Shown here: in pieces, positions 1 to 64,000 of the stretch
Position numbering within the stretch: position 1 is the first letter of the stretch
How the letters are laid out: each line of letters begins with the position of its first letter
Source of the DNA: Scenedesmus sp. ARA3
Lineage: Eukaryota > Chlorophyta > Chlorophyceae > Sphaeropleales > Scenedesmaceae
Length of the DNA: 64,000 bases
Direction: 5' to 3'
Assembly: GCA_004335835.1 (NCBI GenBank)
Contig: RWJK01001462.1
Span: forward strand, 1 to 64,000
Made by a program: the position numbers and the translations under genes
The notes under the pieces: model-generated
What the model was told of the DNA's origin: nothing
The model's database searches: none
What the model saw: only the letters and a program-made list of their open reading frames with translations

Positions 1-49
<49 letters not shown>

Positions 50-63
50 GCTGCTGCTGCTGC
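1..63 (+). repeat. CTG trinucleotide tract ending at a 3' splice site
   Basis: About 20 CTG units with one interruption fill the end of the FKBP intron, right up to the acceptor at 70-71. The tract runs off the window edge. Confidence 0.9.
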
Positions 64-71
64 CGTCCCAG

Positions 72-284
72 ATGATCCCCGGCTTTGAGCTCGGCATCCT
101 CGGCAGCGAAGAGGGCTCGCTGCCACCCATCAAAGAGGGAGGCAGCCGCACACTGCTCATCCCACCTGAGCTGGCGTATGGGGCACTGGGTGACGGCTGC
201 CTGTTTGGCCGCGCAGACAGCTGCAGGATCCCTCCAAACTCGGCTGTTGAGATCACCTTCCAGTACAGGGGGCTGGGGTACTGA
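72..284 (+). CDS. FKBP-type peptidyl-prolyl isomerase, C-terminal exon (5' part outside window)
   Basis: This is the last exon of an FKBP-family prolyl cis-trans isomerase, which catalyses rotation about Xaa-Pro bonds. It starts after a CAG acceptor preceded by a long CTG tract, so the leading Met is an internal residue and the 5' exons lie beyond the window. The 70 residues hold the core FKBP end: IPGFELGI, a Gly-Gly hairpin, the LIPPELAYG motif, and a closing IPPNSAVEITFQYRGLGY strand. The insert GCLFGRADSCRIPP with two cysteines resembles plant and algal thylakoid-lumen FKBPs, so a lumenal location is inferred; no transit peptide is visible here. The stop is TGA at 282-284. Two degraded copies of this exon's tail follow at 319-489. 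Family assignment is firm; subfamily is not. Confidence 0.85.
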   Translation: MIPGFELGILGSEEGSLPPIKEGGSRTLLIPPELAYGALGDGCLFGRADSCRIPPNSAVEITFQYRGLGY

Positions 285-318
285 TCCATACCAATCAAGA
301 TGGTGCCAGGACCCACAT

Positions 319-489
319 GGGTGATGGCTGCTTGTTCGGCCGCGCAGACAGTTGCCGGATCCCACCCAACTCGGCTGTTGAGATCACTTTCCAGTACAGG
401 GGGCTGGGGTACTAGAGGCCTGGGGTTTTGGGCGCGCAGACAGCTGCAGGATCCCGCCAAATTCGGCTGTTGAGATCGCCTTTCAGCAG
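319..489 (+). repeat. Two tandem copies of the FKBP terminal exon tail
   Basis: Positions 319-415 repeat the last about 97 bp of the FKBP exon (189-284) almost exactly. The copy still encodes the CLFGRADSCRIPPNS segment and has its own stop (TAG at 413-415). A third, shorter copy lies at 431-489 and lacks the end. Neither copy has an obvious acceptor, so both look like 3'-flanking duplicates rather than usable exons. Confidence 0.85.
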
Positions 490-1014
490 AGCGTGTTGAT
501 CTATAACAGCATAAAGTAGGTAACAGCTCCTCAACGGTCTTCACAAGCTGGCTCAGCATGAATTCACCGACTTCTGACAGCACATTCAGCACTAGACGAA
601 CCCACAATAGTGACGCCGGCCACAACCAACAAAACACCCAAGAAGGGCAGTACGAAGCAAGCACGAACATATCTGCAATACTTCGTATTACTTCGTAAGT
701 CATGTCGAGCGCAGCCATTTTCCGCAATTGCTGACCCCCTGCCTGGCAAACCCTCAGGGTTGTGCACTCAATAATGATTAGGTAAGCACCGCTGTCATCA
801 TCTTGTCACACACCAAGCCATAGCAATGGTTACAATTGAAAACAATGACGTGGATGCAACACCCAAGAAAAGCCAACAAGTTGTATAATGCTGCACCATG
901 CCAATGCCTCCACAAGCGTTGATGGCACTGCTCATCAAGCCTCTTCATGCTTCTACCAACGCCTTCCACCAATCTGCGCCACCAACGTGCACAGCAATCA
1001 CCAAACACCACGGA
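490..1014. other. Intergenic, no gene seen
   Basis: This stretch lies between the FKBP gene and the 3' end of the histidine phosphatase gene. Only short unconvincing reading frames occur here. A TGTAA on the minus strand (829-833) could serve as a poly(A) signal for the phosphatase gene. Confidence 0.5.
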
Positions 1015-1336
1015 TCATCAGGCTCCCCTCGCACTGCCGCCAAAGCCTGCTGCCCTCTTACCCACACCCTCCTCAACCTCCAGGTCAAATAGCAAAAGAA
1101 AACCAGCGGCAGCACCAGGCACATGAAACACTGGCTGCTCAGTTCCCCTCAGGCTGCCACCAAAACACCCTGGCTGCTGCCACGCTCACCCTACAATAAC
1201 CTGTTCCTGCCAACCTGCACAACTGCGCCTACAACACCTCACACAAAGCACCCACTGTCTAGTTCACTGGGCTGCTCATGCCTCCCTTGTGCTGCCGCCA
1301 AAGCCTGCGGCCCTCATGCCCACACCCTCCTCAGAG
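1015..1336 (-). repeat. Tandem copies of the histidine phosphatase gene tail
   Basis: Positions 1264-1336 and 1015-1092 repeat the 3' coding end of the phosphatase gene (true copy 1540-1620), at a spacing of about 260 bp. A weaker fourth trace is near 1130-1190. The shared core reads MRAAGFGGS or a close variant. They lie past the true stop codon. Confidence 0.8.
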
Positions 1337-1539
1337 TTTTCAAGTACCCCAAATTCAACATGCACTCAAGCCCGTCCGACGGCAGCCTGTGCTGCCAACC
1401 TGCACAACCCCACACCATGCAACTCACAAGCTAGAGTGCTCGTCGCAGCCTTCTTCACTTCTGTAATGTCCACCAATGCCAAATTGAGACGTGCACCTCA
1501 GCTCAACTTGCACAACAGCGCACCAATTAATTTGGCTCA

Positions 1540-1741
1540 TCACGCCTCCCTCGCGCTGCCGCCAAAGCCTGCTGCCCTCATGCCCACCCCCTCCTCAGCC
1601 TCCAGGTCAAACAGCGCAGCGCTGTCATTCCAAACCAGCATTGAAAGCTTGCCTGTCACCACCCTCGCGCCATACATTGCTGCATTGGCTGCTGCTGTTG
1701 CTGCTGCTGGCGAGGCTAGTTCTTTCGTCACGCCATGCTCA

Positions 1742-1822
<81 letters not shown>

Positions 1823-2185: not shown

Positions 2186-2231
<46 letters not shown>

Positions 2232-4367
2232 CTCTGCTGCGCTGGTCCTGAGAGTCCTGGCAGCTGCCACGCTGGTCCTGAAAGCCATTGCGGAAGTCCT
2301 GACAGGTATCAGGCTGGGCCTGAGAGTCATTGCATAAGTCCTGACAGCTGTCAGGCTGGGCAGCATCCAGCTCAGCAAGCACCACGCTGATGCTGCAGTT
2401 GCTGACTTTGCCATGCGCCTCATAGCCACGCGCTGCGCGGTGTGTGGCATGCAGCGCACCCCCGTGGCTGATCACAAGCACTCGCTCGCCTGCGCAGGTT
2501 GCGGCGGCAGCAGCAGCAGCAGAAGGCAGCAGGCACAGGCAGCGTTGTGGGACAAAACACCAACATCCAAGCTCGCGCCAGTGCTGCTGTGTGGCGCACC
2601 ACAAACAGGCGCTATAGAAAGAGACGATGAGCCCGCCAGCGCCGTCCTCTTAACCATCTCCTCTTCCACAACCTGAAATGTAAACTCTCCCTTCACAACC
2701 TAGTTGCAGTCAACATATGCTGTTGCACACTTCACCTCACAGCCGCTGTGGTGCTGCGCTGCAAAGCTTAGCAGCGTTTGGGCCACCCTTTCCCTCAGTT
2801 GGTATGCCGCAGCGTGTAGTTGGTCGCAGCAGAAGGAGTGGACTGCAAGCTGGCAGCAGTTCTTCAGCAGCTGGCCCCTTGCCAGACCCAGCAGACAGTG
2901 CCTTCCCAGGGCAGCAGACCCTTGGTTGATATGCCGCAGCTGGCTACACAGCACCCACCCTCCCACTCCACACCACACAGCAAGCCCACCTTGGTGCTGC
3001 GCTGCGATCTCCAGAAGCGTTTGTGTTAGGAGCTGCTTAAAATCATCCAAACTCATCCCATCAACGCAACCCCAGGGATGCGGCCCTCTGCTGCACCACC
3101 CTAATTGCAACTTATTTCAGGTAAGATATCTCAAACCTGATTCCCGCACCCACCTTGGTGCTGAACTGCAATCTCCAGCAGCGTTTGTGTTAGGCGCTGC
3201 TTCAGCTCATCCAAGCTCTCGCCACCGCCAGGGATGCGGCTGGCATGGTCGCCGCTCTGCAGCGCTGCCCACGCCTCTGGTTGCACGATTGGCGCCTCTT
3301 TGTTGGTGAGTCCTTGCAGCAGGCCGATGTGGCGCTCTCGCAGGCCTGGGTGCTGCTGCACCTGCGCATTTTGTACACTTTGTCCATGTTAGTAGATGTT
3401 GTACACAGCACAAGCTGAGAAGGTGCAGCAACCCTACATGGCGCTCAAACGAGCCTCAATGCTTGCTTGCAACTGCAAGGACAGCAGGAGACGCAATTTT
3501 GCCAGGTCAGCATGTGTGCAAAGCAAGCATGTGTGGGACCCTGCAGCAGGCTGATGTGGCGCTCTCGCAGGCCTGAATGCTGCTGCACCTGCAGGACCAG
3601 TGTGAAATCAGCAAATGCACAATTGCCAGGTCAGCATGTGTACACAGCAGGTGCTTCTTTGTTTGTTTGGTGAGGCCCTGCAGCAGGCCGATGTGACGCT
3701 CTCGCAGGCCTGAATGCTGCTGCACCTGCAAGGCCAGCACACACGCAACCGCGAGGTCAGCATGCGTGCACAGCAGGCGCAAAAAAAAAGTGAAGCCGCG
3801 CTCTTTGGCGCTCGTGCACGCCAGGGTGCTGCTGCACCTGCAAAGCCAGCGTAGGCCAGCATGGTGTGTGCGTTGTGCCTGTGAACAGTGCCAGGCCAGC
3901 ATGTGTACAAAGCACGTGCTTAGAAGGTGAAGCAGCCCGATGTGGCGCCCGCGCAGGCCAGGTGCTGCTGCACCCGCAAGGCCAGCATATTGCGTGCAAT
4001 TGCCAGGTCAGCATGTCATAAAAAAAACTGTACAGTACAAAGCACGTGCAGAGACGATGAAGCAGCCCAATGTGGCGCTCACGCAGAACTGGGCGCTCCT
4101 GCACCTGCCATGACAGTTCATGTGTGTTTGAGACATCAGATGATGCGAAGCATTGCCTAGTCAGCATGTGCGTGAAGGGAGGGTAACAAACCTGCAGTAA
4201 GAAGCGGCAGAGGGTGCACACAGCACAACCAGAGGAAGCGCAGCAGGAGGTGTCCTGCTCTCAGCTGCAGCCAGTATGGTGCTGCCAGGATCTGCGCTGT
4301 CGGGTTTATGTGTGCTACACCAGAGCTGGCACACACTCGCAGCTACACCAGCGTCAGCAGCCGAGGC

Positions 4368-4405
<38 letters not shown>

Positions 4406-4824
4406 GGCATTCTGCTCTCACCTGCAGCCGGTATGGCGCCGCCAGGATCTGCGCTGTCTGCAGCGTGCGCTGCAGGTCGGAGCTGACCACAGCATCAAAG
4501 TGCGTGTAGCGCCTCTGCAGCACATGGCACAGCTGCAGTTGCAGCAGCAGCAGCAGCAGCAGCCGAGGCTGCAGCGATGACATATGAAAAAGAGGCAGCA
4601 GCATGCACGTTGCCATCCTTTGCGACACGCGTCAAGCTGTCTTCATTTGCCAGGCTTCGAGGGCCTTGCCTTCTCAGAAGATGACAGGTGATCCACAGAT
4701 GGCGCACTTGTGCCAAAACAACACTAGACGTGCATTTGATGCAGCAGTAATTGCATTGGCTGCTGACTGTTCCACACAACGGGGTCCTTGCAGGACAGCC
4801 TGTTGCTGGTCACACCTTCATACC

Positions 4825-4859
<35 letters not shown>

Positions 4860-6256: not shown

Positions 6257-6268
6257 GCCAGTTGCAGC

Positions 6269-8710: not shown

Positions 8711-9140
8711 GTTGCAGGCAAGAATCGCAGAGATGTATCGGTGCTGCCTGCACGCTCACGGACAACTGTCACCGCTCAATACACAGGCATCCTATTGGTT
8801 TCGCTGGACATGATATGCAGAGCTACTTGAATCCGTGAGTCAAGCCGATATGCATGCATGACCTGCGCTGCTGCATTGTTTGTACGACCTCCAGGACAGC
8901 CTGTAGACCCTAGCCCGGAATGACATCACCCTGGACAACCTGACACATTCTCGACCAGCGCTCCAGCGCACCAACGCATTGCAAAGCAGTGATTTCACAT
9001 TTGGTTCAAAGCCTAGCCTCAGTACAGCATTTGCGCCATGCGCAGCACTGACGCTTGCAGCTAGCTGCGTCTGCACTGCCTCCACCTGTCCAGCTCACAC
9101 CCCTGCAACCCCCACCCAGACCAGCTTGGCCTGAACAATT
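8711..9140. other. Intergenic, RING gene upstream region
   Basis: No coding exon is recognised between the RING gene start and the IWR1 3' flank. The 5' regulatory region of the RING gene must lie here. Confidence 0.45.
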
Positions 9141-10789: not shown

Positions 10790-10828
<39 letters not shown>

Positions 10829-13313: not shown

Positions 13314-15364
13314 TTAAGGGTGGCGGGAGGGCACGCGCCACAGCTTCTTGTTAATAACAACGATGTCGCTGTCAGTGACGTACTTCAGGAAGTCGCGCAC
13401 AGCGCCCTTGCGAGCAGCCTTGCCCAGAGCCTCATACGACTCCCAGGCGCTGTAGGACACAAAGACGGTGTTGTCGCCTGCAGCAGAATAACAGTTAAGG
13501 AAAAGAATAACATTGCATCAAGCCTTTGCGAGCGGCCTTGCCGAGCGCTTCGTAGGACTCCCAGGCGCTGTAGGAGACGAATACCGTGTTCTCACCTGCA
13601 AACATAACATGCAGAACAGTAATTTTTGTTGCGGGCATAAACAAATAAACCTGTGCCGAGCGCCTCCAGCCCCGGCACTGTAGGAGACAAACACTATGCA
13701 GCCAGCTGTGGGAAAACCCAGAGGTTAGATGTTGAGCAGGCATGATGACAATGGGTGCATGCAGGAGCCAGCAGGGCAAGGGGCAACCCGCCCTCCAACC
13801 CTAGGCACACCAGTGCAAGAAAAAGCTGCCACCGGCGGTGAATACACATCAAGCAACATGCCGCACCTGCAGGCTTCTTCAGCACCAGGGCCAGCTTGCC
13901 CGTGGCGTCCTCCAGGGCCTCTGCCACCTTGTCACCATCGTAACATGACACATATTTTGATAGGAAAACACAGAATCACATACATATCAACATGCAGCAC
14001 ATGCAGGCTGGTGGTTCAGCACCAGGGGCAGCTTGCCCCTACTGTCCTCCAGCGCCTTGACCATGCAGGCACCAACGCAACATGACACAACTGCAAACAT
14101 GACACAACTTCAAACATGACACAACTTCAAACATGACACACAAAGTCACATGCACGATAACATGACGCACCTGCTGGCTTGTTCAGCACCAGCGCCAGCT
14201 TGCCCTCGGCGTCCTCCAGACCCTCTTCTGACCAGGCACCAACGTAACATAACATGATGATAAATAAGTTAACATAATGATGATTGAATAGTAACATAAT
14301 GATGATTCAAAAGTAACATAAGGAATTAACATAGTATAATGCCGCACCTGCCGGCTTGCTGAGCACCAGGGCCAGCTTGCCCTTTGCATCCTCCAGGGCC
14401 TCAGCCATCTTGCCAAATGCCTTGATGAAGTCACGGCCGTCACCTGGCAGCAGCAGCAGCAGCACGAGATGGTGTAAGCAAAAGGTTACCAGGCCAATGA
14501 GCAGGCGCGTCTGGTAGCGCATCTTACCAGATGCCTAGATGTCACGGCGCCACCTGGCAGCAGCAGCAGCAAGAGTTGGCTGGTACTGCCATACCACAAA
14601 CAAAAACAGCAGCAGCAGCAGCAAGAGGGGCACAGCACACCACAGCGTGGGTCAAGGACCCACCACAAACGAGGACAAACGCAAACTGCATCCAAAAAGG
14701 TGCCCACAAGGAGGCACGATCACGAGGAGGAACGATGTACTTGTAAAGAGCCAGCCTCACGGGCCATCCGCGCTTCTTTTTGTCCTCAGCACCAGCTCCA
14801 GCAGCAGCAGCAACAAAACATGTCTTAACTTTCATCAACTTTCATCATTAACTTTCATCAACCGTAGCAATGCGTAACACTCACGAGGAGGCACGATGTA
14901 CTTGGTGACCAGCCTCACAGGCCATCCGCGCTTCTTGTTGTCATCAGCGCCACCAGCAGCAGCAGCAGCGAAGGGCGTGGCCGCCAGGTCAGCGCCCGCA
15001 GCATCACCAACTTCATACAACAGCAGCACTTGCCACACACCACCGACACAAGCAGCAGCAGAGCAGCAGCACCAGCAGGAGGGGAACACAACACCATGGC
15101 ACACTGCTAGCCACAAACCACACGCAACAAAACACAATGCTGGTTCTGTAAATTACTCACGAGGCGGCACGATGTACTTGGTGACCAGCCTCACAGGCCA
15201 TCCGCGCTTCTTGTTGTCATCAGCGCCAGCAGCAGCAGCAGCAGCGAAGGGCGTGGCCGCCAGGTCTGCGCCCGCAGCATCATCAGCTGTGAAGCAGTCA
15301 GCGCCATTGGCGTTGGCGCCGTTCTCATCCTTCTTGCAGTCCTTGCAGTGGCAGCCGTGGATCT

Positions 15365-15395
<31 letters not shown>

Positions 15396-16695
15396 AAACA
15401 GATCAGCAGGGAGAGACAGTTGCCGCTGTTGGCAGCCTCATAGTTCTTCTTGCAGTGCTTGCAGTGGCAGTGGTGGATCTGACGCAGCGACAGGAAGCAT
15501 CAGCAGCAGCAGCACGATTGCAAGGTGATATTCAACCAAAAATTGACAGCTCATGAGTCCACGGTGCAGTGTGTGATCAGCCTTCGCATTGTGTGGCGCA
15601 TTGCATGATCTGAAAAGCTGACACCTCCTTGTCACCATGACACTGCGAACTGAGGAGTAGCCACACTTTCCAAATCAACCAGTACGCTCTTGCAAAGATC
15701 TGCAGAGCAGCTACATCAAGCACAAGCTCACAGGGAAGACCAGGCTACACTCCACAGGCACGTCGGCCGTTATCAGTGTGCACACGCGCACACGTACACG
15801 CGCGCACGCCCGCACACGCAGGACGCACGCGCGCACGAACACAGCAAACATGACTTGGTCAACATGAAGAAAACTTTTATCCAGGAAGACAAGAACATGC
15901 AGTGCCACTCACGAGGAAGACCAGGACGGGCACGATGGCGGTCATCAGCACACAAAACCTGGCCAACATCTAGCCAACGATGAGCCAAAACAACACGACT
16001 TGATGTAGTGCCACTCACCGGGAAGACCAGGGTGTACTCCACGGGCACATTGGCGGTCATCAGGTAGGAGCCAAAGTCGCGCAGCGCCTCGGAGCTGCAA
16101 TGACATGCAGCAGCAGCAGCAGAAGCAGCAGCAGCGGCGGCGTCAGGTAGGAGCCAAAGTCGCGCAGCGCCTCAGAGCTGCAATGACAGGCAGCAGCAGA
16201 AGCACCAGCAGCAGCAGACAGTATGACGGTCAGAGGTAGGAGCCAAGGTGACGCAGCGCCTCGAAGCTGCAAGGACAGGCAGCAGAACAGGGAGCAGTAC
16301 AGCAGCAGACAGAGCGCACACGTGCATATGTTGGCTGCAGCCGACTTGCTGCGTATTCAGTGTTTGATGCGATCTGCCGAACGCGATGCTGCCAGCGCTG
16401 CCAGCGACAGCGGTCTGAACAACACCACCTTTCAAGTGTGCTGCAGTCATACGCCTTACTATGGTACAGGGCAGCTCCAGGCGTCTACAGCACTGTGCGT
16501 ACCGCATGAAGGCGGCTTGCACACTAGCATACACTGTATAGCAGGCTGGTGCGTGCCGGCATGCCAGCAACACATTAGTGTTTGTAATGGGGCAGGAACA
16601 TCCAGCTCCAGCACTGTGCTTACCGCATGTGCTTGAAAGCAGCCTCCACGTTCTTGTAGACAGTGTAGGAGGTCCACACCAGGTTGTCACCTGCA

Positions 16696-20283: not shown

Positions 20284-22660
20284 TTAACCAAAGAAAGGGA
20301 ACGCTATACTGCTGCGCCCAGTTGCAACAGCAGAACCGCCGCGGCCGCCACCACTAGCAGCAGCAGCGCCGCCACGGCTGCCACCACTAGCAGCAGCAGC
20401 AGCAGCAGGTTGGCACAGCTCTGGGGCTGTCAGTTGTGCTGTTGTTCCTGAAGGCAGGCGCACGGCAAATGGCATCAGGCTTGGGGATTCCTGGCTGTGG
20501 CCTGTCCATGCCTCTCCATCCATGAAGGAGTGCGTCACCTTGGAAACAGTGCCTGCAGGAGACACGGCAGAGCAGCAGTAGCTGTGCGTGAGGCGGTGAT
20601 CGAGGCAGGGCAACAGATTGCCATCAGGTGCTTGAGCTGCTGCATGCAAGCTGGTGCATGCAAGCTGATGTATGTGGCTGGTGCATGTGGCTGGTAACAA
20701 TTTTATTTGGATTATTCATGAATAGCACGATGACGCAGCGATGCGTGAACCAGCCGCCAGAGCATCGGCGATTGCCAGCAGCTTCACACAACGAAAGAAG
20801 CCTTATACACCTGAGTTTTGACTTTTGAACAGTGAAGGGTATACCACCCAAACGTCAAAACCGTTGTTATGAGATTTCTTATGAGCTTCAATGGCTTGCA
20901 TGCATGCAACTGATGAACTTGTGTGTCAACAATCTTTCAGTGCAATATGCTGTCCTACAAAGCTGCACAGCTTTGATGTTCCCATGGCCAGAACCCTAGG
21001 CACAAGCCCACCATGGTGCTTGCTCACCTGACGCAGTGCTGGCGCAGACCTTTGTTGTTAGCCTGCCCATCGGCTTGGCCTTGAAAGCATTCTGAGAAGT
21101 AGAAAATGCCGCCACGTCAGCATACTCCGTTTTGCCGATGTTGTCGTCGATCGGCAGCTGCACTGATGCAATGCATCCAGCAGCATCTTGCACGAATGCC
21201 GATACCAGCTGCATGCCTTTGCTCTGAAGCGGCCGTGGGAGTGGCACGTCTGCCATCTTTGCTTCAAAGATGAGCTTGTTGCTTTTGTTATCTTTGACGC
21301 TGACTTTGACCCAGCCGGGGCCTGTTGACCAGTCAAAGGTAGCCAGCTCCTGCAGGAGACACGTGTGACAGCACACTTGAAATTCCAAAACAGGGATGTG
21401 CCATCGCGTTTACAACGCATCAGTGTCAACACCGCCTGCAACCTTACGTGTCCGTGTCCTTGGCCGCACTCCTGCTGCTGTTTATGCTGCTGCTCGCGTC
21501 CACTACCGACAGCGTCTAGTTGCTGTGCGCCATCCCAGCAGTGACACATAAGGTTCTACCTTACTGCAGAAGCACGCTTGCCGGACAACATAGCAGCTGC
21601 CGATCACGTTGGGGAGGCCCCAGATGTTCCTGCCAACAACACAGCAAAAACGCAGAAAGCAAGCGGCAAGCAGCAGAAAAGCAGCAAGAAAGCAGCCTTG
21701 CCTCACCTTGGGCATGCCCCAGATGTTCCTGCCAGCTCGCTGAGAGAAGGGAGAGTCTACCCAAATACGCGCCACATGCTGCAGCCCATCACCGCCGCAA
21801 TCGGCTGCAGTGTCATACTTGCCAGGGCTGCATGTGTGCAGTAGACAGCAGGCAGAGCAGCACAGGTGGTAGTGGTTAGTGTCACGTGGATCACACATAC
21901 GCGCAACATACTGCAGGCCATCCACGCCGCAATCTGCTGCAGTGTTTCAACCCTCCAAGGCTGTGTGTGTATGTGTGCAGCAGAGAGCAGGCGGGGCAGC
22001 ACAGGTGGCAGTGGTTAGGGTCACGTGGATCTCACATACGCGCAACATGCTGCAGCCCATCCACGCCGCAATCTGCCGCAGTGTTTAAACCTTCCAGGGC
22101 TGTGTGTGTGCAGCAGACAGCAGGCGGGGCAGCACAGGTGGCAGTGGTGAGTGTCACGTGGATCACACATATGCGCAACATGCTGCAGCCCATCCACGCC
22201 GCAATCTGCTGCAGTGTGGTGCCTTCCATGGTTGCATGTATACAGCGGGCAGCGGGCAGACAGGCACAGGTGATGATAATGAGTGCACATGCAACACACA
22301 TTGCAGATGCGTGCAACATGCTGCAGCCCCTCCAAGCAGCAGTCTGCAGCCGTGTTGAACTAACAGGGCTGCGAAACATTGTTTTTGAATATCAGAACAA
22401 ACTGGTGGAGTGAGACCGGTGATTTTCAGGTGGATGGTCAATGCAGGGGCATGTGGGACACAAGTGCTGTGCAGCGTCAATGGTATCAAGTACAGGGGCA
22501 AGCTGCACGGGCAGTGCTGCAGCCTGTACAGCCTGATGATAAGAATGAATTTACACATCCTCCGAGTCCTCACGGACCGCAGATGTGCGTCGCTGCTGCT
22601 GTCATAGAAGGACATCTGGATGTATTGGATGAGGCAGCTTGCTGTGTAGCTAGTAGCTGC

Positions 22661-24691: not shown

Positions 24692-25675
24692 GCCGCGCTG
24701 CGCTGCTGCTGCCACACACCAATCACCTGTGCCTCTGCCGTGCAATGCTCTCTCCTCCATGCAGTGCGCTGCGCTTTCCTGGGTCCTGTGTGGCGGTGCT
24801 GCTGTACATTGTGGTGGCAGTCACGGCAGCGCCAGACAACCACGTGGGCACACGCATCTTCATCAGCGGGTTCATGCTGGGGCCCATGTGGCTGGCCATA
24901 AGCATCGGGGCAATCGTGGTGAGCAACTGTGGTGTGTGCTCAGTGCTAGTGATAAGGCTGTGCAGCAGCAGCGGCGGCGGAGGCAGCGGATTCATGCTTG
25001 GGCCCATGTGGCTGGCGATCAGCATCGGAGCAGTAGTGGTGAGTACTACAGCACGTACAGTAGCAGCAGCAGCTATTTCTATATTAGGCACAGCAGCAGC
25101 AGCAGCAGCATCTTCATCAGCGGCTTCATGCTGGGGCCCATGTGGCTGGCCATAAGCATTGGGGCAATTGTGGTGAGTAGCACAGCACGTACAGTAGCAG
25201 CAGCAGCTAGTTCTATATTATGCACAGCAGCAGCAGCAGCAGCAGCAGCAGCATCTTCATCAGCGGGTTCATGCTGGGGCCCATGTGGCTGGCCATAAGC
25301 ATCGGGGCAATTGTGGCGAGTGGTTTACTCAACCAGTACATTAAGGTGTGCAGCAGCAGCAGCAGCGGCGGCGGCGGCGGCTTCGTGTTGGGGCCCATGT
25401 GGCTGTCTGTCTCTATTGGAGCAATCGTGGTGAGTAGTTTAGCCTGTACAGCAGCAGCAGCAGCAGCAGCACCTAGTACTACAGCCTGTACAGCGGCAGC
25501 AGCAACAGCAGCGGCTTCATGCTTGGGCCCATGTGGCTGGCAATCAGCATCGGGGGGATTGTGGTGAGTACTTTACTCAATAGGAAAATCACGGTGTGCA
25601 GCAGCAGCGGCAGCGGCGGCGGCTTCATGCCGATGAGGCTGATGGGCGCAGGCGCGATGTGATGAGCGGCTGTGG

Positions 25676-25707: not shown

Positions 25708-26940
25708 GGTGTCGGCGGCAGCAGCAGTGTCGGCGGCAGCAGCAGCGGTGGCGGCGGCAGCAGCAGCAGCAGCAGCGGATGCTGGAGCCAATGTGACTGG
25801 CCACATCTAGTGGAGCTACTGTGGCAAGTAGCAGCACAGCTGGCAGCAGCAATGGTAGCAGCAGCGGCAGCAGCAACTGTTGCGCTTCATTGCTCAGCCC
25901 CCCACTAGGTCAACACCCTGTGCTGTGCTGCCGCTGCAGCTGATGTGCAGGCCACAATCGCCAAGCTGATGCCCACCTCTGAGGCCCACATGGCAATGCT
26001 GTGTATGCTGGGACTGCTGGCAATTGAATGGTTGCTATCGCTGCTGCCGCTGCTGCTGCTGCCACTGCCGCTGCCGCTGCTGTTGCTGCTGCTCTTGCAG
26101 GAATTGCTTGCCACATCCTGCTGAGCTATCCCTTGTGTCATGCCATGATGTCAGCCTCTGCTGCATCTCCATATGCTGTTGCACTGCTGCACATCTTGAT
26201 TTATGTGCAGGCCACCATCGCCAAGCTGATGCCCACCCCTGAGGCCCACATGGCAGTGCTGTGCGTACTGGGCCCACTTGCAGTTGTGCCTTTTGCTATT
26301 GTGCGTGTGGGCACAGGACACCTCTACCTGTGGGCGATGGGCATGATATCAGCGCTGTATGTCGGAATGCCAATCATTGCAGGTGCGCCGCACTGCCACT
26401 GTTGATTCGGTGTGTTATCCATACATTACTACACATCAAGGTCACAGCGTATCCATGCACTGTCTATGCGTGACTGCATCACGCCCAGATTATGAAAAAA
26501 AATGCCGTGACGAATTGTGCTTGTTTGACCGACACCTCTGGCTGCATGCTGGCCAAGCTTGCATCAACACATGGCTGTGAGCTGTAGCGAATTGTTATTG
26601 AGCATAGCACCCACATCATGAACCTTGGACTGGCGGTGCGGCGCATGCTGCGTGCTGTTTGAGCAGGCCCGAGTGCAGTTGCTTGCAGCTGTCTGGCTTG
26701 CGTGTAGGCAAGCAGTTGCTGCTGCTAATGCGACGCATGCAAAGTCTTCAACCTTCAGCCTGCTGCTGCTGCTCAACATGCTGCGCTGCCACAGGAATCC
26801 GACTGTTCAGCGGTACGCTTCAATGTGCTGCTGCTGCTGTTGCCGCCGCCATCTGCTGTGTATGCTGCACTGCCGCCTGCAGGATACAAGCTGCCCACCG
26901 TGGCACAGCTGTGGATGCTGGCGGTTCTTCAAGCTTCAAC

Positions 26941-36298: not shown

Positions 36299-36408
36299 AG
36301 CAGTCGATGGCAGCCAGTACACTGCCAGGCAAGTTGCGGCTCTGTTTTGCTGCACACTGGATGCCGATGCTGATCAGGCAAGCAGTTTGGCGCGGCCAGG
36401 GGGGTATG

Positions 36409-36536
36409 GCCAGCCAGCCGCTGCACCTGCAGGGCCACCTGCGCTTCTCTGAGGCGGTGTGTGCAGCAGGCAAGGTGCTGGACCGCATGACTACAGTTGC
36501 GCGCTGCGCGCTGGAAGCTGGAGGGCGGATGTGAGT
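36409..36536 (+). repeat. Copy of the FUSC-gene terminal exon tail with its own stop
   Basis: About 127 bp repeat 36172-36298 (SQPLHLQGHLRFS to ALEAGG) and end in TGA. It starts 237 bp after the original. Confidence 0.92.
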
Positions 36537-53600: not shown

Positions 53601-56600
53601 GGATCGCTTTGTGCGACATGAGTTTAGCAACGGAAGAAGTGCCAGAAAACATGCATCCTGATGGGCTATTCAGGAATTTAGTTTCGTGCTGCTTTGGACA
53701 CATGAAAAACAGCTCTCTGACAAGCAAGCAGCTGGAATATGGGATGTAATGGTGAATCAGCTCGGTCTGTTTGCCGCCGCCTGTGCAGGTGCTTCAGGTC
53801 GTGGCGGCTGTGGGCAGCGCAGCGGCGCTCCGCAGCGCACAAGGTGCACCACGTCCGCAGCCGTGCTGAGCAGCGGCTGGCGAGTGCTGTGCTGCAGGAG
53901 TGGGCAGAGCTGGCATGGGAGCTGCCACGGGAGCGCAAGGCGGCTGCACTGCAGGTGAGCTCGGTTGTGATGGTGTAAAGGCAGCAGCTGGCCTTATGCT
54001 GATGCAACATGCAGTATTGCCTTTGCCTGACACCATTATGCTACAAGTGGTGTGGTGATCAATCGCCCAAAAAAAATAAGAAAGCAATTATAAAAATGTG
54101 TAAGATGCTTCCTGGGCAAACCTCGGCCTTTATGCGTGGTGTCGCTGCTGTGCTGTTGCTCTATCACATGTAAAGAGCGACCCTATCATGTTACATGGGT
54201 GTGTGCTGCTGCACCCTTGCAGGAGGTGTGGCTGCTGCGCCGTGCGTTGTGGGGCTGGCGCGACTGGCTGCGCCTGCGCGTGCGTTGGCGCCAATTTGAC
54301 GCTGCTGTTGCCACCCACTGGACAAACCTGCACCTGTCGGCAGCCTGGCGGGCATGGCGAGGCTGGCAGTTGCAGCGGCAGCAGAAGCGCCAGGCGGAGC
54401 TGACAGTTGCGCGCAGATGGACCAACCTGCACTTAGCAGCAGCCTTGCAGGCTTGGTGGGAGCTTGTCCAAGTGTACCGGCGCCGCAAGGCTGTGTGCGA
54501 GACTGTAGCTGGCCGCTGGCGCAACCTGCACACGGCTGCGGCGTTTGGCGCCTGGCGCTCGTTCGTGCGGCGGCAGGCGGCGCAGCGCAGCGCACAGACA
54601 GCAGTTGCTGCCAGATGGACCAATCTGCATCTAGCCATGGCGTTCGGAGCTTGGCGCGATGCTGCAGCAGAGGCAGCTCTGCGCGCAGAGGCGGCATCAG
54701 CATCAGCGCGGCGTCTGGAGCAGCAGCTGCTTGCTACAGCGCTGTTAGGCTGGCAGGAAGTAGCCACCCGCAAGGCAGCTGTGCGTGTCAAGGGCTCCAC
54801 AGCGCAGCAGCGCTGGCGGCTGCAGCAGCTGCGGCGGGGGCTTGATGGCTGGCGAGTGGGAGTGGCATGGCAGGCAGCAAAGCGGCAGGCAGATGCGCAC
54901 TGGCGGCATGTTGTGCTGGGCTCGCTGGTGGGCCTGTGGTGGAGCCACACGCAGCGCAAGGCCAGCTATGCAAGGGTGAGTTGGTGCTGCTGCTTCTAAA
55001 CGTGCCTCGTGTAATGGGCGTATGCTGCTGTGATGGAACAGAAGGTTGCCAGAAGTTGCACATTGCATATATACCTGTATGTCCCCACCGCCAGAAGTTG
55101 CACGTTGCATATATACCTGTATGTCCCCACCTTCAAGTAATGCACACATAAGTCTCCTTGCTGTCAGATACCTCTTGCTGTGCGCATCATACTCTGACAC
55201 TGCTGGCTGTGTGGCCTGTCATGCTCGCAGAACGTGCTGCTGCTGCTCAGCCGGTCAGAGCTGCAGCTGCTGCGCCGCAGCTTCGCCAGCTGGCGCGACT
55301 ACACAACGTACAGGCAGCAGAAGGCAGTGGCAGACGAGTATGCAGCCTCTGTGCGGCTGCAGCGTGCATTTACTGGCTGGTGCCAGCTGGCAAGCCAGGG
55401 CAGGCAGCGCGCAGATGCAGCAAGCAGCATGTCAGCGCGCCTGCAGGCCCGCAGCCGCAGCCAGCTGCTGCAAGCCAGCTTGACCAGCTGGAAGCAGCAC
55501 TCAGCGTACTACAAGCAGAAGGCTGCAGCAGATGAGTACGCGCATGCGAAGCTGCAGCAGCGTGTCTTCTGGGGCTGGCTGGTGCTGGCGGCTGATGCGA
55601 AGCAGCGGCACACTGCGGCTGCCAGCATGGCTGCTGGTGTCGCTGCGCGAGGAGCTCATGAGCTGCGGCTTGCGTGCTTCGCTGGGTGGCAGATGCGGGC
55701 AGTGCGTACACGCACCGTCAAGGTGCGCAACAGCTGAAGGAATAGACGCCACCTTGACATACGTCAGCATCTTGTGCCAGAGCCAGCGTTCTGTGCATAG
55801 AACTAAGGCATATTGATACGCCCAGGCGCTGCTGACATTGCCGCTTGCCCTCGTCTGCTGCATTTGTTTGCCGATCTTTTGCAGGCGACTGTGATTGCAT
55901 TCAGCACACGCCGCATGCGCGGCTACCTGCAAGCCTGGCATGCCCACGCCCGTCAGCGCGCTGGCGCATCCCGTATGCTGCGCCTGCTGCTGGCTTCTAC
56001 CCTGGCTGATGCATTCCTGGAGTGGCGTGCTGTGGCTGCTGAGAAAGCGCACTGGCGCAGGGTGAGTGCGGTGCTGAACCATCTTCTTGTAAAGCTCAGC
56101 ACGTGCATAACAGCTCGACTCCCTGGTCTTCAACCCCTTGCTTCATGCGGCGTTCACTAGTACTGGCCCAGGCATGCTTGCAACCTAGTATCTGCCACAC
56201 TGTGCAGCCGAGCAACTCCCCTGCCTTGCTTGTTTTGCGCACAACGTTGCACTGAAGGCTCCGACTCATGAACCTGCAGGTGGGCTTGCAGCTGGAGCAG
56301 CGCACCCAGACCAGCAATGGCAGCAGCGCGGCGCAGCTAGCGCGCACAGCCGTTGCCCGCTGGCAGCACTGGCCGCTGTCCCTTGCCCTCGCCAGCTGGC
56401 GCTCCAACACAGCAGAGCTGGTGCTTGAGCGCACCAATGAGAAGCGTGCCTCTACATTCCTGTACTACGCACTGACTCTGAAGGCCCTCACAGGGTTCAA
56501 GTGGGCGGTGCGGGATGCACATGTAGACAATGCTGCTGGGCAGCACAGGCAGGTGGTGACGAAGCGCTCGGTGCTGCGAGCCTGGCGGGTGGCAGCTCTG

Positions 56601-59600
56601 TATGTGAAGGTGCGGCGTGTGACGCAAGCTGTGCTTGGTGCAGCAGTCTGTTGCCTCTGAACGGCTCTGCCAGCCTGCTTCTGCGGTAGGTTTGCAGCGT
56701 GTTCTAGTCTGGTGTAAGGTTGGAGGTTGGCGACCTTGCAACAGTGCAGGATCTGATAGTGCCTGCACCTTGCATACACCTTGGCAGTGCGCCGAATACT
56801 AGCAGCAGCCGCAGCAGCAACACACCACACGCTCAATGTTGTGTTCTGTGGCGGCACATCTGCAGGAAAAGCGGCAGAAGCTGGTGGCTGCCCTATACAC
56901 CTACTCCTCCAGCCTCACCAGGAAGGCCACCCTCGCGTGGCTGCTGTACCTGCAGCACCGGCAAACCAAGGCGCAGCAGTGGCAGCGCGCAGCGCGGCAC
57001 TACGTGCTGCGGCGCAAAGCGGTGTGCTTTGGCGGCTGGCTGCGGACGGCACGTTACCTGGTGCCTCTGCGGCGCAACATGGGGCGGCTGCACACCAAGG
57101 TGACTTGCAGCACTGATATGGACAGGTGGCTGTTGCTGGTTTGGCTTGTCGGGTTTGGCGCACATCGTCTGCTTCTGCTATGCATCATGCACATCTACTC
57201 CTAAGCAAGCCCCAGGCATAGATGGTGCCAGGAGCATGCCATGCTGTGCCATCTTACACGTGTGGTTGATGCTGCGCAACTGCACACAGGCAGCAACTTA
57301 CACGTGTGGTTGATGCTGCGCACATTTCTCTGCTTGCACTGTTGCAGCGCCAGCAGCAGACCATGCGGCAGGTGGTTGGGGCCTGGCAGCTGCAAGTGTA
57401 CCGGGCAGAGCTGCTGCGGCATGCGCTGGCACGCCTGCTGCACAAGCAGCTGGCAGAAGCTTTTGGGACTTGGAGGCAGCTGGCATTGCTGCAGATGCGC
57501 AGGCGCTCGCTGCTGCACGTGAGTGGAGCTGAGCATTTGCTGATGTGGTCGTCTTGTGCTTGCGTGCCAGCTACCCAACAGTGTCCGGATCCATGAGTAA
57601 GCTGCTACAGTGCGGAGGCTAGATGCCATGCATGCATGTATGTAGCATTGCTAGCACCGGCGCATTCGGTGCAAACGGCTGTGCTGTGCTGCTGTCCGCC
57701 TCATGTTGATGATGTTGACCTGCCTCATGTTGACATGGTCTGCAAACGGCTGTGCTGCGCTGCTGTCCGCCTCATTGCCAACAGACGGCTGTGGCGCACA
57801 TCAGCCACCTGCAGCTGTCACGCGCCTTCAACTGCTGGCGCGAAGCAGCGCAGCAGCTGCAGCAGCTGCGGGCTAAAGCTCAGCTGGTGCTGGCACGCAC
57901 ACTGGAGCGGCAGCTGCGGACAGCATACGGCTGCTGGAGGGCGTACGTGGCACACAGGTCATGGAAGTATGGGCGCGTTGCGCTGGCAGTGGCGCACTGG
58001 CATGGCGCATACTGCAGGCGTTCGGTGAATGCCTGGAGGGCTTTCAATGAGGTGGGTGGTTATTTGGCTCTGAGAGTCAGCAAGGTCCTCACGTAAAGTG
58101 TTGTTACAGTGGGGAAGGTGCTCTTGGGCGAGTGGTGTCCAGGGGCTGCATCCGCATCTGCTGGCAGCAACTGTGTTGAATTGCTTTGGCATCTTGACAG
58201 CTACAGCATGACTCAGCAACAAACGCACCCTTCCCTCCCACCTGCGTCTTGCAGGAGGCCCGCCGCTTCCAGCAGCTCTCGCAGAACATGCTGGCGGCGC
58301 GCCAGCAGGCGCAGCTGGCAGCAGCGCTGCACTGGTGGCACCTGCTGGCCCAGGACCTGCATCACCACCGAGTGGTGCTGGCGAGCTTCAGGGCCCGCCG
58401 CATGCGCAGGGAGGGCTACGCTGTGCTGCAGGAGTGGCGCGAGTGGGCGCACGAGCGGGCACAGGAGCGGCGCGCAATCGTGTGCCACTGGAACAGGCTG
58501 TTGGTCACGGTGAGGATTGGCAATTGGCTGTGCAATCAACATAGTGGGCTTGCTCACGATGTGGTTACTGCTAAAGACAGCGGGCGCTGGCTGCGGGTGT
58601 TAGGCTGCTGTGCCATTGGAGCAGGCTGCTGGTCACGGTGAGGATTGGCAGCTTGCGGGACACAGAGTGGCTGTGCGATCGATTGATTGGGCTTGCTGAT
58701 TGAGGTGTTTGCTGCAACTGAAAGCAAGTGCAATGCATGGACATTGCATATGCTGCTCTGACATGCCTATGTCAGCGCTTCATTTTAAGCAGCTGCCTGG
58801 TCTGTCAAACACAGCGACTGTGATTGGCTGGCACTGAATGGTGTGTTGCTGCATCCACTGCAGGCCTTTGGCAGATGGCTCATGGCCCTCGAGGAGGCCC
58901 GCACAGAGCGCGCTGCACGCATCACACCTGGTTATTGATGGCTGATGCTGACTCGTATGTTGCTGCATGCGCTGCTGTGCAGGCCTTTGGCGGATGGCTC
59001 ATGGCCCTCGAGGAGGCCCGCACAGAGCGCGCAGAGGCGCTGCACCCATCACACCTCACAGCACGCGCAGTAGCAGCCTGGAAGCTTGCCATGGCGCTAC
59101 GCCACCGCAAGCGCGTGCTGAGCAAGGCCGCGCAGCAGCTGTGTGATGTGTGGAGCTGCCGCAAGGGTCTGCAGCGCTGGATGGTGTTTGCGTACTACAA
59201 GCACATGGGGCATGTGGCGCTGCACTTCAGGATACGGCGGCTGGGCTGTGTCGTGATGCGCGCATGGCACCAGGTGGGTGCCGATGGTTAGCTGCAGGCT
59301 TAGAAAGTTACGGTCTGCACGTTGCAGGCTGAACAGTTGTGAAATTGTCCTCAATGCACTTCCTAACGCTGCCACCTGCATGCCGCTCTGTACTGCAGGC
59401 TGCGCATGAGCGTGCTCAGCTGCAGCAGGCCTCGCTGGAGTGTTGAGCAGAGCTAACACCTCAATGCACTATCATAATGCCGTCTTCAACTAAGCACTTT
59501 TTTTGCCTGCGGCCGGCTCCACTGCAGGCTGCGCATGAGCGTGCTCAGCTGCAGCAGGCCGCCTTGGAGCTCACGCACCAGCTGGCAGTCAGCACAGCTG

Positions 59601-62600
59601 CCAGCCTGCTCAGCCACTGGCAGCAGCTGGCAGCAGCGCAGCGCCACCAGCGGCAGCGGCTGCTGCGCGGCTGCTGGGGCGAGTGGGTGTGCTGGACTGC
59701 GCGGCACCAGGTGCGCAGCCGCGTGCTGCGTGCTGCGGTGCAGCAGCTGGATGCGAAGAAACGCGAGCGCTGCTTCTACACGTGGCGCTGGTACTGCCAG
59801 GTGGGTGGTGCCGGCGTGTAGTGTGTCTCACACCACTCTATATGAACGCATATCATATTGTGGGCCCGTGAAACCCAACTAATCACAACACAGCTGACAC
59901 TGCAGATGATCGCTGTGGCGTAAGCTGACTGGGGCTGTCTGCAATACTGCCGTGCTGTGTGCAGGTGCGCGTGCTGCGCAACGTGGCGTTCCAGCACAAG
60001 CAGCGCGCCATACGCGAGGCATTGGCCATTGGGGAGCAGGTGGCACGGCGGCGCCGCGCAGCGCTGCTGGCGTCGACCTTCATGGCCTGGCACGTGCAGG
60101 TGAGGCTCGCACAGCTGTGGCCCGCAGGCGTGCTCAAAGTCTGACTTTGTGAGCTACTCAGGCTTACAGCAATTGCAGCCGTGCACAGCCTTGCACAGCC
60201 TTGCTGTCAAAAAGTAGTTTGGGGTGCCAGCTGCCTGTCACAATGTCGTGTTCATAGCACCTGATGCCAGAGCCACATGTTTAAGTTTGGAATGCTAAGG
60301 ACAGTTTCTTGCTAAATATTTGTCTGCTACATCACAGCACTAGTGTGCAGGTCAGCAAGAACCGCAAGGTCGCTGAGAAGCTGGCCATCTGAGCCACATG
60401 TTTTTTTTTTGCTAACCTTTGCGCGCTGCGATATCACTGCTTTGCAGGTCAGCAAGTACCGCGAGGTTGCAGAGAAGCTGGCCAGCCTGCTGCACCACAG
60501 CCTGGCCACCTGCTTCAGGGCCTGGCGAGATGCAGCAGATCATGCGCGCGTGGACATGCTGCAAGCAGAGCGCCACGCAGCCACTACCACACTGCGCAAG
60601 CTGCTGCCCGCATGGCTGGATGCAGCAGATGAGCTCAAGCAGCAGCGCGTACAGAATGAGGCTGCAGCAGACAGGATGCACAGGCGCGGTTTGGCAGGCA
60701 AAGCCCTGCAGGGGTGGGCTGAGGAGTGTGCGGTGCTACGGGAGCAGCGCAGCGGCCTGTGGCGTGTGCTGCTGCTGGTGCTGCACGCAGAAAGGACAGC
60801 ATTGCTGCAGGAGGCTCTGCAGGGCTGGAGGGAAGCAGCAGCGCAGCAGGTGGCGCTGCGCAGCTGTGTTGCGAGCTTTGTGAACAAGCGGCGGCTGCAG
60901 TGCCTTGGGGAGTTTCTCACGCTGTGGCATCAGTATGCTGCTGCGATGCGGACAGATGGCGCCGCGCTGATCCCTGCTGCGCTGGCGGCGCCATCGCCGG
61001 CCGCTGCAGCAGCAGCAGTGCTTGGCAACAAGGGGCTTGCGAGAGCAGCGATGTCAGCTGCATATGCCAGTGCAGCTGCCAATGCAGGCGCAGCGTATTA
61101 CTCGGCAGGGCCTGTGCTGCTGGGTGGCAAGCGGGCCAGCCGCATTGCTGCTGCTGGAGTGGCAGCCAGCATCAACGGGCCAGTGTTTGGCGCTGCAGCA
61201 GCATCAGCATCAGCAGCTGATTATGGTGGGGGTTATGATGATGGCGATGCAGCAGCAGGGCTGCAGCTGCCGCCTGGGGTGCTGCCAGTAACTGGCGGGC
61301 CTGGCTCACCGCTGCTGGGCCCTCGCACTGCACATCAGGACCGGCGGCTGGCTCGGCGGCTAGCAGCAATGGGAGGCGGCGCTGCTGAGGTGAGGACTTT
61401 TGCTTGGGTGGGTTGCTGGATGGCTGCTGTACAGGACTGCTGTTGTGTGCAGGTCGCCAGACGTGGGAGTGCAGCCAATGAAATGCAAAGGAGCCTGTGA
61501 ACAAGCTGTGAATAGCATACTGCAGCAGCCTTTACATGTCTGGCACAACAGCGTTCCATGCGTGCGGCCTGCTTACCCTGCTGCTGCCACCTGCACTTGC
61601 CTTCTCCTGCCACAGGTTGACACGGGGTCAGATGACGAGCAGCAGCTCTTCGCAAGCCTGCCAGCCACGCAAGCTGCAGCAGCAGCAGCGGAGCGCCGCG
61701 ACCGACAGCAGCCGCTGCTGGCGCTCAGCCGCGGCTACAGGCGTCACCGGGTGACGCTGAATGACGAGCGGCAGCAGTACGATGACGCTGCAGAGTCTGG
61801 CTCCCCCAGATGTGCCTCGCCTGGCTTTGACCTGCATTCTGTGGCTGACAGCATGCGGCAGGTGGGTGGCGATGGCAATTGGTGGCAGCAGGGTGCTTGG
61901 AACTGCTTGTAACAGCATCAGCTGTGTGTTGATCTGCACTCTGTGGCTGACAGCATGCGGCAGGTGGGTGGCGGTGGCTGGCAGCAAGGCTTTGAAACAG
62001 CACTATGTTTGTAGCTGCAAGCTGCAACCCCTCCTTCAGATGTCATGGGTGCACTACTGTGTCCAATGCAGTTTGCATGCTTCGCAAACCGTTGAAAGTT
62101 GGCTGGTGTTGAATCGTATCCTGCTGTTGACGCTGCTGCTGCTGCAGGCTCACGAGCAGGGTCTGTCCCCCTGGCAGCTGCCCAGCGTGCGCTCCCCGCG
62201 CGCCAAGGCAGCACACCCTACTACCCTCTCACTGGACGAGCTGCACAGCTTCGGGCAGCAGTACCCATACCACCTGCAGCAGCAGCAGCAGCAGGACAGC
62301 TTGCGGCAGCAGGGCAAGAAGACCATGCACCAACAGCAGCAGCAGCAGCAGCAGGGTGGTGTGCAAGTTGTTGGCAGGCCAGGCTCTGCTGGCAGCTGTG
62401 CTGACTATCAGCCACTGCTAGAGCAGCAGCTGAGGCTGCACCAGCAGCAGGCGGAGCTTTGTGCATTCCAGCTGGAGCAAAGGGAGAGGGCCAGGCAGCA
62501 GCGCAGCCCTTCACCTACCAAGCAGCAGCAGCAGCAGCAGGAGTATTATCAGCATTCTGAGCCTTGGCATGAGTCTGGCAGGGCCAACGGCAACAGCAGC

Positions 62601-62962
62601 CGCCGCAGCGCAGCTGGCGCTGCTGCCAGCGCTGCTGGTGCCGGTGATACGCATTGGCCTGAGCGGCGGCAGCATATCCTTGGCGGCTACAGTGCAAGCA
62701 GCAGCAGCAGCGCAGGCGGTAGTGTGAGTGGCAGCAGCAGGGACAGTAGCCCGAGTCGAGCCAGTGCTGCCGCTGGCTCACAGGATGCTGCGGAGCAGCA
62801 GCTGCTGCAGCAGCAGGAGCAGGAGCTCCACCAGCAGCTGTATGGTAGGTGGGCCAACAAGCAAGTGGTGTCATCCCCGCAGCGTCGGCAGCAGCAGCAG
62901 CCGGGGCTGCAGCAGGAGTGGCAGCAGTGGCAGCAGCCTGGCAGCCCTGCTCGTGGACATCC

Positions 62963-62998
<36 letters not shown>

Positions 62999-63326
62999 TG
63001 CAGCAGCAGCAGCAGCAGGGCCACGGTATGGCGCTGAAGGCCTTCCAAGGTCCCTAGCTGCACTAGTGAGTCCAGGCAGGGCAAGGCGTGGCACCACTGA
63101 CAGTGCTGGCAGTGCTGCACCTGTCACGCCTGCTGGAGTGTTGGGCCAGCTTGCTCGGGGCAGCGTTGTGTCTGCATCACCTGCCGGCAGCAGGCAGCAG
63201 CAGCAGCAGGGGGTGAGGCGCGTGAGTACTGCTAGCAGGGCCAGTGGCAGTGGAGGTGGGGCAGGCAGGGGTGAAGGGGCTGCAACAGGGCTGTCTGTTG
63301 GCGCGTGGGACTTCGTTGGCCAGTGA
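44606..63326 (+). CDS. SFI1: Giant SFI1-type centrin-binding repeat protein
   Basis: SFI1 proteins form long helices that bind centrin along their length at centrosomes and basal bodies. I traced 36 exons whose phases all agree: 44606/44660-44721, 44887-45246, 45457-46638, 46823-47017, 47210-47708, 47900-48078, 48267-48482, 48677-48797, 48975-49115, 49343-49429, 49650-49774, 49959-50210, 50355-50570, 50700-50951, 51120-51350, 51567-51741, 51911-52045, 52205-52530, 52682-52814, 52979-53131, 53335-53501, 53789-53954, 54223-54975, 55231-55722, 55885-56061, 56280-56609, 56866-57099, 57348-57518, 57785-58051, 58255-58509, 58983-59273, 59528-59800, 59965-60099, 60448-61389, 61616-61861, 62148-63326. 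The total is about 3,723 residues. Residues to about 160 form a conserved-looking helical domain; to about 550 is Ala/Ser-rich with SPxxS motifs; about 550-3100 carries some 80 Leu/Phe-xx-Trp-Arg repeats; the tail is polyGln. The start codon is uncertain. Confidence 0.85.
54223..54975 (+). repeat. Internal 33-residue repeats within one SFI1-gene exon
   Basis: Four successive units share the pattern WTNLHLxxAxxAWR: HWTNLHLSAAWRAWRGW, RWTNLHLAAALQAWWEL, RWRNLHTAAAFGAWRSF and RWTNLHLAMAFGAWRD, each 33-34 residues after the last. They are much closer to each other than to the other repeats, so this block expanded recently. Confidence 0.85.
55048..55131 (+). repeat. 42-bp tandem duplication in an SFI1-gene intron
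   Basis: gccagaagttgca...gtccccacc occurs twice in a row with one difference. It is purely intronic. Confidence 0.9.
57240..57345 (+). repeat. Duplicated intron segment before SFI1-gene exon 57348
   Basis: cttacacgtgtggttgatgc and its flank occur at 57251 and 57296, about 45 bp apart. A similar duplication (aacggctgtgctg...ccgcctcat) lies at 57672-57775 before the next exon. Confidence 0.85.
58605..58655 (+). repeat. Copy of the donor edge of the SFI1-gene exon 58255-58509
   Basis: caggctg..ggtcacg|gtgaggattggca (58492-58522) recurs 126 bp later, past the true donor. Confidence 0.85.
58860..58936 (+). repeat. Copy of the head of the SFI1-gene exon at 58983
   Basis: It reads AFGRWLMALEEARTERAA after a CTGCAG acceptor, against AFGGWLMALEEARTERAE in the used exon. 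Confidence 0.9.
59395..59446 (+). repeat. Copy of the head of the SFI1-gene exon at 59528
   Basis: AAHERAQLQQASLE follows an ACTGCAG acceptor and then hits a stop, so it is a dead copy. Confidence 0.9.
60343..60405 (+). repeat. Copy of the head of the SFI1-gene exon at 60448
   Basis: VSKNRKVAEKLAI then a TGA; the true exon reads VSKYREVAEKLAS. Confidence 0.9.
61925..61970 (+). repeat. Copy of the donor edge of the SFI1-gene exon 61616-61861
   Basis: DLHSVADSMRQ|GTGGGTGGC is repeated 102 bp past the true donor. Confidence 0.9.
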
Positions 63327-64000
63327 GTGGGTGTGATGCTGCGTAGCATCGCAGATATTGCTGATTCCTTGTGTGTGGTTCGAGCTCGAGCTGCTGCTTG
63401 GTAGGGCAGTGGCGTTGAGGCAACACGTTGCTGGGCAGCGAGAAGCAGCTTTGATGCTGTAGCGAAATTGTGTTGGCATTTGGTGCCTCCATTGCAGAGA
63501 TGCGGCAAGTGAAACACAAATGTTGGTGAGTTGCAGGGTCGAGGACAACTTTAGTAAAAATCTGCGAGTTCGAAAGGCAGCAGATTAGCGAACCTCGGAC
63601 GGGTTCTAGGGTTTTCACATGCTCTGCTCATAGCAAATCGCGATGCCCTCCACCTGATGTCAGTACACTGCGAGCACTGCTGCGAACATTGTGATTGCAG
63701 TTACTTCCAACAGGCTATCAAAAACTCTGTGCATCGCGGAACTCCAGAGCAATCTACGGCACCTTTGCCACATCTACAATCCAACGCAATGCCTGGCCGA
63801 GTTACTCTAAAAGCTGACACACGTAGCTCTGCTGCAGCCAGCAGCCATGAGCAAACGAACTTACTGGGGCGCTTTTAGAGACAAGCCGCAGCTGCGGCTT
63901 AAGCTGGCCTGCACAACGACAGCTCCTGGCGAGCCAGGTAGGCTTTGCTGATTCCTGCACTATTCGTACACTGTCTAGCTCCAACAACACAGGCACGACT
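63327..64000. other. SFI1-like gene 3' flank, no further gene seen
   Basis: The 674 bp to the window end include the 3' untranslated region. No TGTAA is visible soon after the stop. A minus-strand open stretch at 63802-63996 has no recognisable feature and could at most be part of an exon continuing outside. Confidence 0.45.

Follow-up and report, generated by a model that had tools for sequence, protein, structure and literature searches.

Are exon ends in Scenedesmus sp. ARA3 struck by duplication more often than other sequence, or are they the places where duplications stay recognisable? The question is raised by a stretch of 64,000 nucleotides (the window), part of contig C1084 in a draft assembly of 87.3 Mb and 1567 contigs, in which exon ends recur as local direct copies, usually with their splice sites. 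The pattern is genuine and departs strongly from randomness, and it resembles an unusually frequent type of short tandem duplication. Among the papers listed in literature searches, none was seen to describe the copying of exon edges as a genome-wide trait.

The sample consisted of the window and 25 further 10-kb pieces (26 sequences, 314 kb in total); a RuBisCO large-subunit gene is present elsewhere in the same assembly. Local pairs were collected by self-BLAST with E ≤ 1e-5, a length of at least 30 bp and a separation of no more than 1.5 kb, and dinucleotide shuffles served as controls (one for the window, 40 for a set of 20 pieces). Exon edges were taken from a custom HMM gene finder trained on the 314 kb, which learned the donor CAG/GTGAG and the acceptor TGCAG/G (slash at the junction) and predicted ten genes in the window; its edges were compared with a homologous protein at the valyl-tRNA synthetase gene of piece L028 alone. 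Its errors included a donor put inside an apparent exon near 32888–32920 and many copies called as exons. Pairs were classified by one fixed rule, the edge class requiring a predicted exon edge plus 15 bp or more of exonic sequence, and age was binned by the identity of the exon part, since binning by overall identity was biased.

Seven protein pieces from window genes were compared with Pfam, which gave one histidine phosphatase and one ABM match above cut-offs, an acetoacetate-decarboxylase-like piece and a leucine-rich-repeat piece just under or under them, and no match for the remaining three. The largest prediction, at 44509–63326, is a 42-exon gene whose protein of about 3500 residues carries many Trp-rich short repeats (W..W pattern) and presumably resembles the centrin-binding Sfi1 proteins; no Pfam family matched a piece of this protein whose start was partly mistyped.

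Within the window, 73 direct local pairs were recovered, covering 12.8% of its length at a median distance of 236 bp, with no inverted local pair and no pair in the single shuffle. The set of 20 pieces gave 107 direct pairs and one inverted, with none in its 40 shuffles, and a set of five pieces gave 30 direct and no inverted, so that 210 direct pairs within 1.5 kb stood against one inverted across all 26 sequences. The reading made from the sequence alone, which had described local tandem copies of exon edges of graded age, was borne out in this respect, as were its near-identical examples (in the arrays beginning at 14707 and 31109 and the pair beginning at 32788) and its suggestion that the pattern was not peculiar to the window: pairs were found in 17 of the 25 other pieces and were absent from eight. 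Its estimate of nine in ten genes was too high, in that arrays touch six of the ten predicted window genes and copies were found in 75 of the 335 introns sampled. The load differs strongly between genes (chi2 95.3, df 28, p 3e-9), the extremes being nine of 13 introns in the gene of piece L021 and none of 17 in that of L012. Introns with copies have a median length of 440 bp, or 239 bp once duplicated bases are subtracted, and copy-free introns one of 225 bp. Two valyl-tRNA-synthetase-like paralogues were also compared, with 14 local pairs in 10 kb at a looser threshold in L028 and one pair in 5.2 kb in L037 (C373:2200–7400); their introns did not align.

Table. Direct local copies and related features of the window, with strand and identity.
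Feature	Positions	Strand	Identity or detail
Edge array, predicted gene 0 (truncated at window start)	187..498	-	
Coding-end copies past predicted end (1540), histidine phosphatase gene	983..1615	-	
Donor-edge copy	2985..3218	-	87%
Edge array, several copies	3303..4116	-	63-90%
Donor-edge copy	4221..4458	-	82%
Acceptor-edge copy	13404..13600	-	84%
Edge array	13854..14415	-	68-87%
Donor-edge array	14707..15288	-	best pair 14879-15012 / 15155-15288, 96% over 134 bp
Acceptor-edge copy	15312..15480	-	79%
Donor- and acceptor-edge copies	15727..16277	-	70-94%
Tandem array, period 132-139 bp, begins at acceptor edge	21762..22371	-	
Exon-end array, about six copies	24854..25623	+	
Acceptor-edge copy	25943..26255	+	96%
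Acceptor-edge array, three copies	27367..27615	+	92-93%
Acceptor-edge copy, 36 bp intron + 8 bp exon	28445..28606	+	93%
Acceptor-edge array	29814..30274	+	87-97%
Donor-edge array	30346..30867	+	85-97%
Donor-edge array, six copies, period about 112 bp	31109..31757	+	
Donor-edge copy	32788..33162	+	32788-32922 / 33028-33162, 95% over 135 bp
Coding-end copy, both copies to stop codon (by eye)	36172..36524	+	
Two weak families in large repeat-protein gene	54244..55589	+	61-66%
Intron-only direct pair	57670..57775	+	97% over 35 bp
Donor-edge copy, eroded intron homology beyond	58481..58650	+	93%
Acceptor-edge copy	58825..59032	+	85%
Acceptor-edge copy, eroded intron homology beyond	59392..59569	+	94%
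Acceptor-edge copy, eroded intron homology beyond	60338..60484	+	86%
Donor-edge copy	61827..61978	+	94%

Several entries merit comment. The two weak families in the large repeat-protein gene are probably protein repeats and not edge copies. In the acceptor-edge array at 27367 the spacer recurs between copies and is missing ahead of the first copy, and in the pair at 32788 all seven differences fall at third codon positions. By eye, the six-copy array at 31109 has two intron flanks, one shared by the first and last copies and another by the four inner ones. Minisatellites with 17- and 22-bp units lie at 14079–14336, in an intron that also holds edge copies.

The edge bias itself is pronounced. 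The 121 non-redundant pairs of the 26 sequences comprised 102 edge pairs, nine that were noncoding only, seven exon only and three mixed, and an edge lay inside one copy in 78 of 91 genic pairs, compared with 47.7% for relocated pairs. In the 71 simple pairs, the exon part of a copy had a median length of 55 bp and the intron part one of 17 bp (less than 20 bp of intron in 39 of 71); the predicted gene models put the copy to the intron side of the true edge in 61 of these pairs. Donor edges (44 pairs) and acceptor edges (27) are both involved, as had been claimed, and so are coding ends: both copies of the pair at 36172/36408 run to a stop codon, as judged by eye, and the copies at 983 and 1263 are located past the predicted coding end. 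Coding ends are thus duplicated as well as splice edges. An intron birth at 36172, as modelled by the gene finder, was rejected since both copies reach a stop codon.

Two explanations of this bias stand foremost. The first, to which we give about an even chance, is the repeated gain of short direct tandem duplications of a break-repair type that straddle coding edges and whose two halves fade unequally. The genome would often gain such duplications, their copies mostly some 70–400 bp apart, in a manner like the products of staggered-break repair. Those lying across a coding/noncoding edge, be it a donor, an acceptor or a stop codon, would be tolerated because the outer copy, lying in the intron or 3' flank, is removed by splicing or passed over. 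Afterwards, this outer copy would drift without constraint; the exon half, whose partner is subject to protein constraint, would remain visible for longer, probably with the help of occasional gene conversion that renews it, and the intron half would fade until the visible unit was reduced to an exon end plus the splice consensus. Most of the edge bias would then stem from survival and not from targeting. Local repair had been one of the two mechanisms first proposed, and local repair-type duplication is still the best class of mechanism. The almost exclusively direct orientation, the intron lengths given above, the copied stop-codon edges and the codon-position pattern described below count in favour of this first explanation.

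The second explanation, which we regard as possible but doubtful, is mutagenesis targeted at coding edges, in which transcription or splicing would focus breaks or template switches there and leave unrelated sequence between the copies; exon-limited RNA–DNA hybrids of spliced RNA, ending at the splice junction, might provide such a focus. Exon ends would be copied with their splice consensus into introns, and much intron growth would, just as tentatively, derive from these copies. The relocation result, the rarity of noncoding-only pairs and the heterogeneity between genes all speak for targeting. The copied stop-codon edges speak against it, and they exclude splicing alone as the cue.

The sharpness with which copies end bears on both explanations. 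Unit ends had been assigned to splice edges from the outset; their non-random position stood, but part of the sharpness arises because the exon and intron halves decay at different rates. In 28 of 60 pairs, over 15 bp of intron showed noncoding homology, and 18 of these 28 lay above the 95th percentile found for mismatched flanks. At 58481, 59392, 60338 and 61827, the intron flanks appeared collinear and eroded by eye, so that some sharp-looking pairs count against targeting. In a shuffle test on short-extension pairs, nine of 31 reached p < 0.05 (Fisher 7e-8), as against seven of 31 in a non-collinear control (Fisher 7e-3); the shuffle z-scores for flank homology appeared strong, yet mismatched controls averaged +1.04. 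In 28 of 30 short-extension pairs, the intron remaining beyond the copy exceeded the spacer in length, which fits the prediction for a tandem unit.

Other measurements point to edges as breakpoints. With calibrated controls, no residual intron homology was found in the 21 of 60 pairs whose ends lie 8 bp or less from the edge (p 0.2 and 0.28; one of 21 above the 95th percentile), and this result, together with the rarity of noncoding-only pairs, keeps edge targeting a live rival. In the 32 pairs ending within 15 bp of the edge, the flanks beyond the alignment were only weakly alike (p 0.034 and 0.098). At an exon identity of at least 92%, 14 of 20 simple pairs had 15 bp of intron or less, with a median visible intron of 8 bp. 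When binned by exon identity, 47–70% of simple pairs ended within 15 bp of the edge; for all 99 edge pairs, arrays included, the range was just 30–42%, which argues against targeting.

How far survival alone might account for the bias was approached with simulations of random tandem duplication around constrained exons, using simple, unfitted models; the second set of burst runs already had six edge pairs in its starting loci. Steady births without conversion gave edge to noncoding-only counts of 61:188 and 36:64, and with conversion ratios of 0.67 to 0.90. A past burst gave 122:166 and 26:8 without conversion, and with it ratios of 0.5 to 1.4, rising in the second set to 1.2 to 3.0 (maximum 6:2). 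The observed 102:9 lies above every simulated ratio. Burst with conversion did reproduce the short visible intron, at a median of 7–19 bp for exon identities of at least 92%. Once exon-only pairs were counted as edge pairs, the best run reached 21:2, a result of small numbers near the observed 109:9; the splice site was absent in 15 of those 21, unlike in real pairs. Real copies kept GT/AG in 56 of 61 cases and lost it in five, a retention higher than in the simulations with conversion. Survival bias with conversion can therefore explain the sharpness and, as modelled, not the whole of the edge bias or the kept splice sites.

Spacers and flanks were then compared by base composition. T content was 0.366 after the real donor and 0.263 after the donor copy, which looks native; the spacer thus behaves as if newly inserted, in favour of targeting. 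Over the first 40 spacer bases after real donors in 21 pairs it was 0.368, native intron starts having 0.22–0.28. Upstream of acceptor copies, A content was 0.094 compared with 0.203 in the intron interior (11 pairs); this acceptor-like flank counts against targeting and against pasting at random intron positions. The copy–spacer–copy geometry of a staggered-break insertion was seen, with a spacer that may be new. A mobile intron or introner was not supported, as nine of nine queried spacers matched their own place in the genome only, further matches being due to a CAG-rich stretch (one spacer) and to an older local copy (one other). Close paralogues with which to polarise events were absent for these nine spacers, and the region 32700–33650 had only matches of 70–78%, on C1194. 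Nor did the spacers form a general mosaic of short local templates: in 27 spacers, cover was 6.9% forward and 4.6% reverse, compared with 0.7% in controls, the reverse share stemming mostly from a single spacer of low complexity (in L018, 82 bases), while older edge copies are present in several of the forward-covered spacers. In L018, the spacer at 8839–8956 between donor-edge copies is almost entirely a five-base repeat (TTACA-like).

That the copies are kept by selection, to serve as alternative or decoy splice sites, is improbable. The retention of GT/AG accords with such a role, as does the mean donor score of 6.09 in copies against 6.28 in real sites, but acceptor copies are weaker (5.71 vs 6.91). 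Codon positions tell a similarly mixed story. Over the 71 simple pairs, mismatches amounted to 10.6/9.3/19.3% at positions 1/2/3 and 17.7% in aligned intron; this pattern of about 1:1:2 is that expected of one constrained and one free copy, and protein constraint on the copies, as for alternative or mutually exclusive exons, was not found in it. The young pairs gave a partial hint of constraint, those at least 88% identical having 4.2/4.4/12.9%, the third position differing about three times as often as the first and second. Spacing further showed no frame bias (distances of 71 simple pairs modulo 3 were 22/20/29 for remainders 0/1/2), in-frame stops occurred in three of 71 copies and exon-part gaps in seven. 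On the whole, the copies resemble pseudo-edges.

The valyl-tRNA synthetase gene of L028 gave a view at the protein level. Its product is 90% identical to a relative's protein, P0001, and the next named matches include Micractinium, Tetraselmis and Trebouxia, among the best 120 of 8000 matches. Every edge is single in P0001, and the edge copies in the L028 gene bear replacements or a stop, which also weighs against selection for splice sites; near 3569, the relative's residue is kept by the copy and not by the real exon. Together with the unconstrained drift and the lack of frame bias, the single edges of the relative fail to bear out the earlier expectation of a continuous supply of alternative exons and internal protein repeats from the copies.

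The other mechanism first proposed, slippage between exon-flanking CAG/CTG tracts, is very improbable: such tracts are abundant and some arrays lie between them (24854–25623, L008 2942–3435 and L021 7008–7225), but a tract lay no more than 30 bp from 15.9% of 176 copy boundaries, as compared with 21.6% for random positions in genes and 12.2% for random positions in introns. An assembly or polishing artefact has the slightest chance of all, for although the assembly is a draft, the copies differ chiefly by substitutions, mostly at third codon positions, and their identities are graded.

What follows depends on the source of the bias. If it is mutational, gene expression would be linked to local duplication, with a direct route to intron growth and the multiplication of splice sites. 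If it reflects survival bias and gene conversion, the genome would still be an unusually rich natural archive of duplications within genes, in which the effects of tandem duplication, purifying selection and conversion on introns could well be measured. In either case, gene finders will call pseudo-edges exons in this genome, as ours did.

Known systems share parts of this pattern. Internal gene duplication comprises short direct intragenic duplications that carry exon, splice site and intron together, and in potato an intron–exon structure has been duplicated (PMC4974935). The algal copies are likewise direct, local and within genes; unlike those described there, they usually become neither intron nor exon, their units end near the edge, and they reach the stated share of introns. 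In Daphnia, internal direct repeats were reported in 55 of 90 neointrons and attributed to staggered breaks (PMC4202315). There too, the terminal bases of the adjoining exon are directly repeated at the far end of the inserted stretch, but the repeats measure 4–12 bp and the introns are newly gained, whereas the algal ones span tens of bases in introns not shown to be new. Fill-in duplications are also small, direct and tandem, and arise from breaks with complementary overhangs (PMC8355091); they were described in mouse and human cells, with overhangs of about 43–54 bp, and the passages on them make no mention of an exon-edge preference. Repair-mediated proximal duplication, finally, yields nearby copies, at most 619 bp long, that show microhomology and filler and include splice sites (PMC2671141). 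Partial exon/intron donors make up four of 824 cases there and one copied exon is inverted, whereas the copies in the alga are nearly all direct and span edges.
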